Translations under genes and position numbers: made by a program
Shown: piece by piece, positions 257 to 52,569 of the stretch
How positions within the stretch are numbered: position 1 is the stretch's first letter
Layout: the number at the start of each line of letters is the position of its first letter
The notes under the pieces: generated by a model
Told to the model about the DNA's origin: nothing
What the model saw: only the letters and a program-made list of their open reading frames with translations
The model's database searches: none
Assembly (NCBI GenBank): GCA_019118885.1
Contig: DWYB01000055.1
Coordinates: 1 to 52,569, forward strand
Reading direction: 5' to 3'
DNA: 52,569 bases
DNA from: Candidatus Mediterraneibacter surreyensis
GTDB taxonomy: Bacteria; Bacillota; Clostridia; Lachnospirales; Lachnospiraceae

Positions 257-3200
257 CTATTTAAAGTATTTAACACCGGACTCAAATATCTTCAAATCCT
301 GCTCTCCATAGATATTGATTGCAACCGAAGTATCGCGTCGTTCAGAATGTGCCATCTTTCCGAGAATACGTCCGTCAGGACTGGTGATTCCCTCGATCGC
401 ACAGTATGAACCATTGACATTCCACTCTTCATTCATGCTGATATTTCCTTCAGGATCGCAATACTGTGTCGCCACCTGCCCATTTTCAAACAGTCTGTTT
501 ATCCACTCCTCGCTGGCAACGAAGCGTCCTTCTCCATGTGATGCCGGATTTGTATAAACTCCGCCAAGTTCCGCTCCTGCAAGCCATGGAGACTTATTGG
601 TCACAACTTTCGTATATACCATCTTGGAAATATGGCGTCCGATCGTATTGTATGTCAGTGTCGGAGAATCATCCGTCTGTCCAACAATCCTTCCGTACGG
701 AACCAGGCCAAGCTTGATAAGAGCCTGGAAACCATTACAGATACCAAGCGCCAGGCCGTCGCGCTCATTTAAAAGCCTCTCTACTGCTTCTTTGATCTTC
801 GCATTCTGGAAAGCGGTCGCAAAGAATTTGGCAGAGCCATCCGGCTCATCTCCTGCACTGAATCCGCCCGGGAACATGATCATCTGAGCCTGTCCGATTG
901 CTTTTTCAAACTCAGCCACAGATGACCGGATATCCTCTGCGTCCAGATTACGGAATACTTTGGTCACAACTTTTGCGCCTGCCCGCTCAAAAGCGCGAGT
1001 ACTGTCATACTCACAGTTCGTACCCGGAAATACCGGTATGAAAACAGTGGGCTGACCAATCTTATGACTGCAGATATGGATATCGGAAGTATTGTACAGT
1101 TTTTCTTCTACTGGCCTGTCCGAACTTTCCTCAGATTTTGTGGCGAATACTTTCTCAAGAGTACCTGTCCATGCGTCTAATGCCTCATCGATACTAATCT
1201 GAGCATTTCCATACTCAAAGCAATTCTTATCTGTTACCTCTCCGATTACAGTGTATGTGATCTGGAGATTACCGACCTGTCCATCCTTCACCTCAGCAAT
1301 AAAATCGCCAAATGCAGGAGCAAACATATCCCGCGGATCCATATTATGTTCGATCTTGACGCCCATATGGTTACCGAATGCCATTTTGCTGACTGCAGCA
1401 ATCACTCCATGACGGTCAAGTGCATAGGCAGACACAATCTTTCCAGACCTGATATCCTCCTGCAGTTTTCCGTACTGTTCCATAACCTTGTCGTAAATAG
1501 GAAGATCATACTCATCTTTCTCAATTCTAAGCCATACAAGTTTATTTCCGGCTTTCTTAAGTTCCGGTGTGATGATATCTTTATCAAGCGCCATATCAAC
1601 AGCAAAAGATACAAGAGTAGGCGGCACATCAATATCCTGGAACGTTCCGGACATACTGTCCTTTCCTCCGATCGAAGGAAGACCGAAGCCAATCTGAGCC
1701 GCATAAGCTCCTAGCAATGCTGCAAAAGGCTGACTCCACCGTTTCGGATCCTCGGACATACGGCGGAAGTACTCCTGGAATGTGAATCGTATCTTCCTGT
1801 AATCTCCGCCTGCAGCCACAATCTTCGCTATCGATTCCGTCACAGCATAGACTGCTCCATGATACGGGCTCCAGCTGGAAAGATACGGATCAAATCCATA
1901 ACTCATCATAGAAACACTGTCCGTCTTTCCTGTCTGAACCGGAACTTTAGCTACCATCGCCTGAGTCTCGGTAAGCTGATATTTTCCTCCATGCGGCATG
2001 AACACTGAACCTGCACCGATAGATCCATCGAACATTTCAACGAGACCTTTCTGCGAGCATACATTGAGATCTCCCAGCGTATTCAGCCATGCTTCTCTCA
2101 CATCACTGATGTCATTTCTTCTAAAGAGACTTCCTTCCTGCTCCGGCATCTCAACTTCTACATTTGTTTCCTGATGCGCTCCATTTGTGTCCAGAAAAGC
2201 ACGGGAAAGATTTACGATCTCTTTGCCTCTCCAGATAAGGACAAGCCTCGGTTCTTCAGTTACAACCGCGACTTTTGTCGCTTCCAGGTTCTCCTCTTTC
2301 GCATAAGACATAAATTCATCTACATCTTTCGGATCTACCACTACGGCCATACGCTCCTGCGACTCGGAGATTGCGATTTCCGTTCCATCCAGACCTGCGT
2401 ATTTCTTCGGAACTTTGTCCAATTCTACTCTAAGCCCGTCTGCAAGCTCTCCAATAGCTACAGAAACTCCGCCCGCGCCGAAATCATTGCATTTCTTGAT
2501 CAGGCGGCTGACTTCCTCCCGGCGGAACAGCCTCTGGATCTTACGCTCTGTAGGCGGATTTCCTTTCTGGACTTCCGCCCCGCAGGTCTCTATAGATTCT
2601 TCTGTATGAACTTTAGAAGACCCTGTGGCTCCGCCACATCCGTCACGTCCCGTGCGGCCGCCGAGCAGAATGATAATATCTCCCGGATCCGAATTTTCAC
2701 GGATAACAGCACGTCTGGGAGCCGCGCCGAGTACAGCTCCGATCTCCATACGTTTTGCCACATAATCCGGATGATAGATCTCTTTTACAAGTCCGGTTGC
2801 CAGACCGATCTGGTTTCCATAAGAACTGTAGCCGTGAGCCGCCTCGCGCACCAGCTTCTTCTGCGGAAGCTTTCCTTTCAATGTATCTTTCACAGATACG
2901 GTAGGATCGGCTGCGCCGGTTACGCGCATTGCCTGATATACATAGGTTCTCCCTGAAAGGGGATCACGGATTGCACCGCCCAGACATGTCGCGGCTCCAC
3001 CAAAAGGTTCGATTTCCGTCGGATGGTTGTGCGTCTCATTCTTGAAGTTAATGAGCCACTCTTCTTCCACCCCGTCTACCTTGATCGGCACTACAATGCT
3101 GCATGCATTTATCTCATCCGACTCTTCCTGATCCGCAAGCTTTCCTTCTCGTTTCAGTCTTCTCATAGCCATAAGCGCAAGATCCATCAGGCAGACGAAC

Positions 3201-20037: not shown

Positions 20038-20106
20038 GTGGAAAATTCGTGTTTATTCCAGAGATTGTATGATGACTCAAGTACAAAATCAGATCGACAA
20101 GAAGAC

Positions 20107-20260
20107 GCAAATAAAGCAGCCGGGAGGTATGTATTGTGTACGCACCGTAAAGTAACGCCGGCACTTGGAGCGCGTCTTCCGCGCTCCTATGTACCGCTGC
20201 GTTACGCCCCGCGCTAAAGCGGGTGCTCTAACAATACATAGCTCCCGGCGGATTCTTTGC
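20107..20260. repeat. Structured palindromic repeat, copy A
   Basis: An element of about 155 nt with nested symmetry. The outer arms at 20119-20137 and 20231-20249 pair over 19 positions with one G-G mismatch, and flanks GCAAA/TTTGC extend it. Inside is a 54-nt hairpin (20152-20205): 7 bp, a CT bulge, 6 positions with a C-A mismatch, a TT/TAT internal loop, 7 bp and a 7-nt loop beginning GTC. A short stem CCCGC/GCGGG (20208-20212 and 20219-20223) follows. Copy B at 52406-52560 has the same layout with different paired bases. It lies downstream of the polysaccharide operon and upstream of the aryl-pyruvate promoter. No ORF is inside. It resembles bcr1-type intergenic repeats in size and symmetry, but its family is not known to me. 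Confidence 0.9.
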
Positions 20261-20275
20261 CGGAACAAACACGAA

Positions 20276-21037
20276 TCAATTTGCTTTATCCGCTGCATGT
20301 CTTCTGCGATAGCGGCGCATGAAACCTTCATAATCTTCGACTACCTGTTTTGCAGGTCCGTATTCTTTTACAAGTCCGTCATGTATCCAGATTACTTCAT
20401 CACACAGTTCCAGTATACTTGCATTACTGTGCGAAACAATCATCACAGTCTTGCTCTTATCCCGGATGATCTCTTTCATTTTCTCATAACTTTTCTCGCG
20501 AAAATTTATGTCTCCCACACTCAGGACCTCATCAATAAGAATGATCTCTGTGTCCAGAATGGCAGTAATCGAGAATGCAAGTTTAGAGTACATTCCGCTG
20601 GAATATGTCTGCACTGGTTTATAGATAAAGTCTCCAAGTTCAGAAAATTCAATGATATCGGGAAGTCGTTCCTTTATCTCTTTCTCTGTAAATCCCAGAA
20701 GCAGCCCTGAAAGATAAATATTTTCAAGACCGCTCAGATTTGCTTGAAAACCGATACCTATTGCCAGAAGCGAAAGGCGATTTCCAAATGTGTCAACCGA
20801 TCCTTCATCCGGAGAAAACACTCCTGCTATCGTTCGTAGTAAGGTTGATTTTCCGCTTCCATTCTTACCGATAATTCCTACAATCTTGCCTTTAGGCACT
20901 TGAAAACTGACTCCTCTGAGCGCTTCGTAATAATCTCTTCTGTGTCTGATCTTTCCAAAACTCTTTTTAATAGAGAACGATTTCATGCTCCTGTATGCAA
21001 CTTTCACATCTTTTACATCAATCGCTATTTCTGCCAT
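20276..21037 (-). CDS. Polysaccharide/teichoic-acid ABC exporter, ATP-binding subunit
   Basis: A 253-residue ATPase of the TagH/Wzt/KpsT type, which powers export of lipid-linked glycans. Walker A is GKNGSGKST (57-65), the signature is YSSGMYSKLAFS, Walker B is IILIDEVLSVGD, followed by the H-loop VSHS. The long insert before Walker A (residues 15-40, rich in Lys/Arg) is common in this subfamily. There is no C-terminal carbohydrate-binding domain of the Wzt(O9a) kind. It follows the permease gene by 7 nt and is the last gene of the operon. Confidence 0.95.
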   Translation of the reverse strand: MAEIAIDVKDVKVAYRSMKSFSIKKSFGKIRHRRDYYEALRGVSFQVPKGKIVGIIGKNGSGKSTLLRTIAGVFSPDEGSVDTFGNRLSLLAIGIGFQANLSGLENIYLSGLLLGFTEKEIKERLPDIIEFSELGDFIYKPVQTYSSGMYSKLAFSITAILDTEIILIDEVLSVGDINFREKSYEKMKEIIRDKSKTVMIVSHSNASILELCDEVIWIHDGLVKEYGPAKQVVEDYEGFMRRYRRRHAADKAN

Positions 21038-50752: not shown

Positions 50753-51856
50753 CTATTCGGCTTCCGATGCTTCTGAAGAGATCGATACAGTCACTTCACC
50801 GTTTCCTGTTTCTGCGGTTTCAATCTGATACTCATCTTTCATCTCATCCTGAACCGTTACTTCTACCTCCGTCAATCCGTCTTCTGACCGGAAATATCTG
50901 GTATCTGTGGAATCTCCCTGTTCTATTTCCACCATTCCGGCACCGGCTCCGGAGCTTTTTTCCGGTACGGCAGCGCTTCCGCTGGCAAATACAGTCATTG
51001 CCGTTCCTGTCATCAATACGGCGCACACAATACCTGCTATGCTTATCTTCTTAAAATTCATAATTGCCACTATCCTTTCCTGAATTGCACTCTTTCCGAA
51101 TCCATTCAGAAAGAGAGACCATTGATATTGGGTTTCTGCCAGATCAAGCAGAGTTTCTGCATACTTTTTCTTCTGCTTTTCTCCGTATATTTCGAGGACT
51201 CTTTCATCACATGAAAGTTCGATATCCCGGTCGAAGAACAAATACATCACCCATGCAAGGGGATTAAACCAGTGGATGCAGGCTGCCATGAGCATGATCA
51301 TCTTTAAAACATTATCAGCCCTCCTGATATGGACCATCTCATGGGCAAGAACATATTTTAAGTCTATGCGGTCTGCTCTGAGCTGCTTTGGAAGTATAAT
51401 CCGCGGTTGTACCATACCGACGGTCAGCGGTGTAGATGTTCTGTCAGAAACACATATCTTCACTCTCTCCGGGATCTTCACCAACATCCGTAAAATCTCA
51501 TCCGCATCTTTTGATACAGGCAGGGCGTTAGCCAGCCGCTGAGATTCTCTGTAATAACGTATCCCAAAGATAAACAGCAATATTGCGATCCCCAAGATCC
51601 ATAGCGCCATCCTCCAGTCAATATTTCCGGAAGCCGGTCTGCTCATATCTAACACTGCTCTTTCTGCCTTTTCAGTCACCGGAGAGGCTATTCCGTATTG
51701 AAAAGGAAGATCAAACGGAATCAGCAGCCGTAATGCGGCAATCTCCCATAAGAGTACAAATACTTTCTTCGGAAGGCGCTTTACTGCCAACATTCGCAAT
51801 GCCATGATCAGAATAATCAGAATTCCGCCGGAAATACTCATGTGCATCAACATCAT
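50753..51856 (-). CDS. blaR1: BlaR1/MecR1-type M56 membrane metallopeptidase
   Basis: Sensor protease partner of BlaI. 367 residues with two N-terminal membrane segments, a cytoplasmic zinc protease domain (HEMVH near 172-176, downstream DRDIELSCDE), a membrane segment near 272-295, and only about 70 residues outside. The tail is acidic and Ser/Gly-rich and has no penicillin-binding (STYK/KTG) domain, so beta-lactam sensing as in true BlaR1 is not supported. The ATG at 51856 is chosen because GAGG lies 5 nt upstream; the longer frame opens with a GTG inside that signal. It starts 7 nt after the blaI stop. Confidence 0.9.
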   Translation of the reverse strand: MMLMHMSISGGILIILIMALRMLAVKRLPKKVFVLLWEIAALRLLIPFDLPFQYGIASPVTEKAERAVLDMSRPASGNIDWRMALWILGIAILLFIFGIRYYRESQRLANALPVSKDADEILRMLVKIPERVKICVSDRTSTPLTVGMVQPRIILPKQLRADRIDLKYVLAHEMVHIRRADNVLKMIMLMAACIHWFNPLAWVMYLFFDRDIELSCDERVLEIYGEKQKKKYAETLLDLAETQYQWSLFLNGFGKSAIQERIVAIMNFKKISIAGIVCAVLMTGTAMTVFASGSAAVPEKSSGAGAGMVEIEQGDSTDTRYFRSEDGLTEVEVTVQDEMKDEYQIETAETGNGEVTVSISSEASEAE

Positions 51857-51863
51857 ATCCACC

Positions 51864-52226
51864 TCACTGCATCTGATCGATCAGATCTCTTAACTGCTTC
51901 AGTTCTTCCGCGTCTACCATTGTCTTATCCGACAACAGAGCGGCGAAAAACTGCTGCTTCGATCCGTCAAACATTCTCTCGATCAGTTCATGCGTCTCAT
52001 ACGCCTGAACTTCCTCCTTTGAGATGACAGCCCGGCAGATAAATTTGGGCTCGATCCGCTCGATCGCCCCTTTTTCAATACACTTTTTAATCACAGTATA
52101 TGTGGTATTTCTGTTCCACCCGATTTCCTGATTCAGTATCTTAGCAATCTGACCTGCAGTCAGATCACCTTCCTTCCACAATGTTTCCATAACCTTCAAC
52201 TCGGAATCAAATAACTTCACCTTCAT
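51864..52226 (-). CDS. blaI: BlaI/MecI/CopY-family repressor
   Basis: 120 residues. The winged helix at about 1-75 has the family pattern LFDSELKVMETLWKEGDLTA and GWNRNTTYTVIKKCIEKGAI. A C-terminal dimerisation helix region follows, with the usual MecR1 cleavage site region lying at the junction. GGAGG lies 7 nt before the ATG. Three near-identical ACTAT-type dyads cover its promoter, so it is autoregulated. No beta-lactamase or copper gene is in the window; its other targets are unknown. Confidence 0.95.
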   Translation of the reverse strand: MKVKLFDSELKVMETLWKEGDLTAGQIAKILNQEIGWNRNTTYTVIKKCIEKGAIERIEPKFICRAVISKEEVQAYETHELIERMFDGSKQQFFAALLSDKTMVDAEELKQLRDLIDQMQ

Positions 52227-52322: not shown

Positions 52323-52405
52323 CATCTGCTGACATAAAACCTGACATACTATCGTACATGGCAAACAGATACAGGATCACTTAATACAACTACACTCCTG
52401 CCGGA

Positions 52406-52560
52406 GACAAAAAAACAGCCGGAACACAGGTATCGCTTAAGGGCCGTAGAGCAACATCAGCACTTAGGCTGCGTCCTTTGCAGCCTTATGTACTGCTATG
52501 TTGCGGCCCGAGCGAAAGCGCGCCCGCAAGCGATACCTGTATTCCGGCGGATTATTTTGC
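52406..52560. repeat. Structured palindromic repeat, copy B
   Basis: Second copy of the element at 20107-20260. The outer arms at 52418-52438 and 52528-52548 pair over 21 positions with one C-A mismatch. Inside is a 54-nt hairpin (52451-52504) with the same lengths of stems, CT bulge, C-A mismatch, TT/TAT internal loop and GTC-starting 7-nt loop as copy A. GGGC (52441-52444) can pair with GCCC (52522-52525). CCGTAGA and AAAGCG match unpaired or junction segments of copy A. The right flank (CCGGCGGATTATTTTGC) matches copy A closely. It lies upstream of blaI. On the minus strand the outer stem is followed by TGTTTTTTTG, so it could also terminate a transcript. Confidence 0.9.
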
Positions 52561-52569
52561 ATCTCCGTC

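Follow-up and report, generated by a model that had tools for sequence, protein, structure and literature searches.

Within the window, the whole analysed stretch of 52,569 nucleotides from Candidatus Mediterraneibacter surreyensis, a hairpin occurs twice with compensatory differences between its copies, which raises the question of whether the locus holds a structured RNA, a folded single-stranded DNA or a mobile repeat. The analysis described below points to an apparently unnamed family of MITE/REP-like mobile elements with a selected three-way-junction cargo, probably RNA.

Window copies and the common fold

The first-pass annotation compared two inner hairpins, at 20152-20205 and 52451-52504, and described stems of equal length sharing a 2-nt CT bulge, a C-A mismatch, a TT/TAT internal loop and a 7-nt loop starting with GTC; the two hairpins agree in all of these features. 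A recount again gave eight paired positions that differ on both sides (three basal, one middle and four apical) with zero broken pairs, and the unpaired letters are conserved as claimed. The element is larger than this inner hairpin, with a conserved core of ~107 nt and a stem, P1, extending further outward. The features of the two copies are as follows.

20119..20249, + strand: copy 1, conserved unit from P1 base to P1 base, pairing inward in the predicted fold (z -6.8)
20131-20237, + strand: copy 1, core matched by covariance model R1 (105.9 bits)
20152..20205, + strand: copy 1, inner hairpin P2 (P2a, CT bulge, P2b, internal loop, P2c and a GTCTTCC loop)
20213..20220, + strand: copy 1, mini-hairpin P3, GC-TAAA-GC, one of five exceptions to GNRA among 75 aligned loops
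20045..20059, + strand: copy 1, outer left arm, able to pair with 20262-20276 at 14 of 15 letters
20262..20276, + strand: copy 1, outer right arm, at whose edge the antiparallel ABC ATPase gene has its TGA stop (20276-20278)
20276..21037, - strand: ABC transporter ATPase gene (PF00005), neighbour of copy 1
52418..52548, + strand: copy 2, conserved unit in the predicted fold
52430-52536, + strand: copy 2, core matched by R1 (119.8 bits)
52402-52412 and 52555-52567: copy 2, outer arms, which also pair in the predicted fold
52451..52504, + strand: copy 2, inner hairpin P2, with eight compensatory differences from copy 1
52512..52519, + strand: copy 2, mini-hairpin P3, GC-GAAA-GC

Compared with dinucleotide shuffles, the copy 2 region folds with a z of -7.8 and the copy 1 region with the value given above. 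Outer arms comparable to those of copy 1 are present at other copies in the same genome. Genes for a BlaI/MecI-type repressor and a BlaR1-type M56 peptidase lie beside copy 2 (window 50753-52226, - strand).

The consensus is a three-way junction of P1, P2 and P3. P1 varies in both letters and length, P2 is the hairpin of the earlier description with a loop that is mostly GTNNTTT, and P3 is a two-pair hairpin with a GNRA cap in 70 of 75 copies. Alignment A2 (37 sequences), from which R1 was built, was collected with a fixed-letter pattern, so that the invariant columns of both are partly set by construction; 92.8% of its cells are paired against 72.4% after shuffling, with double changes at 25 of 32 pairs. 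Alignment A3 (76 sequences) adds genera that R1 found and the letter pattern missed, and was fitted to R1, as was A4. Its paired cells reach 95.2% (67.6% shuffled) and double changes occur at all 32 of 32 pairs, counts that are not independent because the copies are related and several rows come from the same site. The covariation score of A3, 0.762, exceeds that of shuffled (0.226) and slid (at most 0.158) controls, which leave the relatedness of the copies in. Covariation no higher than expected would have told against the first-pass annotation, and against these controls this was not the case. The fold is kept by compensatory change and is under selection.

Order of changes and the favoured strand

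Palindromes can also stay perfect through template switching, which copies one arm onto the other and would make the covariation neutral; related copies were therefore compared for the order of their changes among the 88 distinct rows of A4, the row pairs sharing sequences.

Divergence up to 2%: 12 single changes, 0 paired double changes, 0 double changes not keeping a pair
Divergence 2-5%: 104 single, 11 paired double, 1 not keeping a pair
Divergence 5-10%: 225 single, 228 paired double, 1 not keeping a pair
Divergence 10-20%: 868 single, 2480 paired double, 83 not keeping a pair
Divergence above 20%: 6603 single, 28591 paired double, 3119 not keeping a pair

Singles coming early and doubles late is what stepwise compensation predicts, and argues for selection. 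The dominance of doubles at large divergence would agree with template switching as well, as would the copy inherited in the ileS leader, where both partners changed in 21 of 22 variable pairs and a single pair is broken in one sequence; this set comprises four distinct sequences from seven rows, with the structure predicted from the same four. That one-sided intermediates are nearly missing at this locus is compatible with concerted change too. Template switching is nevertheless extremely improbable as the source of the covariation, given that singles precede doubles in the two lowest bins, that the bulge, the mismatch and the internal loop were left uncorrected and that the unpaired letters are conserved. 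At the ileS locus (L013), a divergent core pair, 1185-1292 (-) and 1507-1613 (+), lies between a T-box-like leader (L013:819-1118, +; 59.6 bits, below the Rfam cut-off of 93) and the ileS start codon, and the + core is the one kept across the four distinct sequences. The claim of a selected fold rather than a chance palindrome is thus supported by covariation, by the order of changes and by this one inherited locus upstream of ileS.

Regarding the strand, G-U pairs number 65 against 22 A-C on the + strand among 2400 cells, and of 109 dereplicated copies, 78 are more stable as RNA on the + strand. All 70 G-N-N-A loops have a purine at the third position, and a purine third letter is the RNA GNRA rule. 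Pair bias, loops and fold energies all lean towards RNA of the + strand, with DNA of that strand less probable. Once transcribed, the + strand would fold compactly as RNA, possibly with the P3 loop docked into the internal loop of P2, which may resemble a GNRA receptor. In an antiparallel mRNA, the complement would form a long 3'-UTR hairpin, as is thought for REP and bcr1.

A position behind stop codons would also suit intrinsic terminators or plain 3' hairpins. Runs of at least five T after the stem, in contrast, are found in 8 of 155 copies on the + strand and 6 of 155 on the - strand against 5 and 6 in the control, and terminator scans gave no terminator-like site at either window copy with a loop limit that would miss a hairpin this large. 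Terminators or plain hairpins are thus a most improbable account.

Distribution, placement and movement

Further copies exist, contrary to what would have spoken against the first-pass annotation. With copies 1 and 2 as blastn queries, 17 distinct copies, the window pair included, were found in the same genome. By blastn over 61 genomes (this one included), the element is carried by 24, all of them among the 37 that belong to the genus. When 84,980 species genomes were scanned with an exact pattern, 105 stretches were returned; among 80 titles listed from it, 47 are Mediterraneibacter, the others being Acetatifactor, Butyribacter, Eubacterium sp. MSJ-13, Ruminococcus, Lachnoclostridium and Lachnospiraceae. 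The proposed covariance-model search of relatives was carried out with R1, which matches in 148 of 397 Lachnospiraceae genomes and 131 of 334 genera of this family; across the class, 11 of 391 genomes are positive, all 11 of them Lachnospiraceae. As far as searched, the element is confined to one family. In the family search, strict filters were applied and nine candidates were scored per genome, so that copy numbers are minimum values and weak members could have escaped; many positive genomes carry at least nine copies. Phages and plasmids contain no blastn match to copy 1, and viral contigs no match to the letter pattern of the element. At one locus (L239; G170:C21:11700-13700), three cores stand in tandem with a 187-bp period.

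The placement of the copies is polar. In 100 of 161 copies, the 3' side of the element lies between -30 and +39 nt from a stop codon that ends an antiparallel open frame; in 35 of 161, a parallel frame stops near the 5' side. The count takes frames of at least 80 codons as predicted, estimates stem ends by folding and includes orthologous sites more than once, the outer repeats themselves containing stop codons. Among 96 classified copies, the downstream frame is on the opposite strand in 68 and on the same strand in 28, and 21 of 160 copies lie inside an open frame. No constant neighbour gene was found, and some sites recur behind the same gene (nrdG, leuA or DegV) at several loci. At one locus, a 2-isopropylmalate synthase frame with a C-terminal AraC-type regulator domain was observed by NCBIfam scan (L160:5502-7490, -).

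The search for empty sites that had been suggested was made for window copy 1. The ABC ATPase ortholog is accompanied by the element in genome G461, whereas none is present within the locus examined in four of the five other genomes (G012, G021, G026 and G035); two of the four element-free orthologs (L315 and L316) stop at the codon where the window gene stops. Gene order beyond the ortholog differs, so that these loci document absence rather than a precise empty site.

Evidence of movement comes from Butyribacter intestini and genome G117, in which the core is flanked by outer inverted repeats of the TAGGYGATTGCGAAAC type. A 13-letter pattern of this repeat has 23 and 12 matches in the two genomes, respectively, compared with one match of its reversal in each. 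In these genomes, 7 of 15 two-ended units lie between direct repeats of 9-12 bp, compared with 0.105 per shuffled run, suggesting that units with outer inverted repeats moved as DNA; the other 8 of 15 have no direct repeats, and one of the seven positives (L336) is off-centre. Two of the seven are core-less units of ~70 nt with a junction where the core would be, implying that the core may be a passenger; such units may represent the empty form or may have arisen by deletion between short repeats. In Butyribacter intestini, core-less palindromes of 55-75 nt with the same outer repeats occur at L335, L343, L357, L363 and L364, of which L343 and L357 are themselves bracketed by direct repeats of 9-12 bp. 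Across the whole set of 191 copies, direct repeats are modestly in excess, those of 10 bp numbering 10 where a shuffled run gives 3.4. Other high-copy genomes inspected have different ends and no clear duplication, and the outer repeats differ between lineages. The mobile-repeat candidate of the first-pass annotation thereby gains support from the multicopy spread and from the direct repeats at unit ends in two genomes. The element combines features of a MITE, namely terminal inverted repeats, target-site duplication (in two genomes) and no coding capacity.

The search for a partner transposase covered the DDE_Tnp_1 and Y1 families. No IS4-type partner was found at 11 DDE_Tnp_1 (PF01609) loci in four genomes, where no pair of outer repeats is present; a single fused palindromic outer-repeat copy with two mismatches occurs at L371. 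Mobilisation by RAYT/Y1 was rejected, Y1 being present in 18 of 40 genomes rich in the element and in 26 of 40 without it. The single-contig genome G450 carries at least nine copies and no Y1, and the only Y1 (RAYT-like) gene found in the own genome of the element (L016:1099-1908, -) is flanked by its own GGGGACGTAGTAAA-type hairpins, which are unrelated to the element. Among the 25 widest of the clusters formed from 930 neighbouring open frames, no transposase or reverse transcriptase was recognised by eye.

In the genome of the window, the ends are of the type GATTTTTCGGACTGA, with 32 matches against 3 in the control; at 30 loci examined for partner distances only, well-matched inverted partners belong to known composites. 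These composites of ~870 bp hold several nested palindromes and extend from about -700 to +172 relative to the core. The composite is whole in L007, L009 and L012; L008 and L010 lack an inner hairpin, whose loop has the inverse orientation in L011 and L012. Within the composite L009:813-1675, no ORF reaches 60 aa. Composite module A (L007, L009 and L012) has no credible Rfam match, the two miRNA matches in L007 being far below the cut-off, and has a predicted fold of -164.6 kcal/mol on the strand that diverges from the core, more stable than the -143.1 kcal/mol of the other strand.

Rival readings, known systems and companion RNAs

Taken together, a non-autonomous, MITE-like mobile DNA with structured-RNA cargo is the reading considered moderately probable, in which a transposase encoded elsewhere would act on the outer repeats as DNA. 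Alternatively, the element could be a single-stranded DNA substrate, attC-like or IS200/605-like, whose + DNA strand folds and is acted on by a structure-specific recombinase. The position just behind stops with the active strand antisense to the gene would suit such a substrate, and the G-T over A-C bias is equally expected in single-stranded + strand DNA. It appears improbable in view of the purine at the third position of every G-N-N-A loop, RNA energies that favour the + strand, the distribution of Y1 over element-rich and element-free genomes and the direct repeats at unit ends, since repeats of 9-12 bp are not expected from single-strand transposition. Structure kept over sequence and the position and orientation behind stops also recall integron attC sites; the element differs from these in its RNA-type loops and in that no cassette arrays were seen, the R boxes having been compared by eye with their consensus.

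A role for the host could also have come first, with the RNA selected at each place and mobility incidental. The ileS-leader copy, which keeps its fold through 21 double changes among four sequences, and the sites recurring behind nrdG, leuA and DegV speak for such a role, whereas the lack of a constant neighbour, the ABC ortholog without the element in four of five other genomes and the direct repeats at unit ends speak against it, and its probability is considered low. Membership in a REP/REPIN family moved by RAYT is largely refuted and very improbable. In its favour, one Y1 gene is present in the own genome, and 16 of 76 copies carry the letters GTAG in the interval from P1 to P2. Against it, these letters lack conservation, a single one of the 31 rows from beyond the mainly own-genus set having them; the absence of an association with Y1 and the genome with at least nine copies and no Y1 argue against such a partner, the hairpins around the own Y1 gene are different ones, and the core is several times the length of a REP. 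Of 80 right flanks, 29 contain CGTC, compared with 12 in far controls.

Among the closest known systems by description are bcr1 and other MITEs, which are likewise ~150-200 nt long without an ORF, foldable end to end and probably moved in trans. The duplication of bcr1 is a short TTTAT, in contrast to the 9-12-bp direct repeats of the element. Both bcr1 and other MITEs are named in the available portion of PMC3733652. According to the same portion, REP, BIME and REPIN sequences of the GTAG and CGTC families are dispersed palindromes present in many copies that sit mostly downstream of genes and form inverted dimers, with arms that vary yet stay complementary, all of which the element shares. 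REPs are described there as 20-40-nt hairpins, and the phyla given in that portion exclude Firmicutes, in contrast to the ~107-nt three-way-junction core with its GNRA hairpin, no conserved GTAG and no Y1 association.

The statement that no named family fits holds against Rfam 15. Within the window, only tRNA is matched, and the core has nothing at the cut-off (five core loci searched at E<=5 and two isolated cores at E<=10). No description or name was found in the literature searched, and the 3161 supplementary candidates of PMC8040213 may include the motif unnamed. A structured element in over a third of the sampled Lachnospiraceae genomes thus has no Rfam entry and no name that was found. 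It connects work on repeated mobile palindromes with work on selected structured RNAs, and its description would make many intergenic hairpins recognisable in annotation. Copies at known sites in common gut commensals offer a natural experiment.

Core pairs within 1.2 kb comprise 21 divergent and 0 convergent pairs and three tandem rows, several rows being the same site. A second RNA, TwoAYGGAY (RF01731), lies 135-237 nt from six distinct copies in two genera, always divergent. It is matched at 6 of 20 loci, and at 1 of 20 and 2 of 10 in further sets, these three being copies already counted.

L300:6631-6794, - strand: TwoAYGGAY beside the core
L298:6592-6757, - strand: TwoAYGGAY beside the core
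L221, L222, L225, L244, L247 and L248: TwoAYGGAY beside the core

TwoAYGGAY is found in the same composites as the core; the RF01731 model has no match on the core itself, its matches falling beside it, so TwoAYGGAY is a divergent neighbour. A model of it (R2), built from a poor alignment of two divergent groups, gave zero matches. TwoAYGGAY is a structured RNA of gut Clostridia to which the 2010 table in the available portion of PMC2864571 assigns no function. Lachnospiraceae might carry mobile cassettes with a divergent pair of structured RNAs as payload, either two cores or a core with TwoAYGGAY, the fold being recognised as RNA by a protein that helps to place or keep cassettes at the 3' ends of genes; this suggestion is tentative and rather unlikely. 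If true, it would give TwoAYGGAY a biological context, and the element provides a testable setting for this RNA.

Clostridiales-1 RNA (RF01699), a separate family, adjoins one core copy only, in a single-contig genome in which a match of 142 bits (L256:496-662, +) lies immediately 5' of the core.
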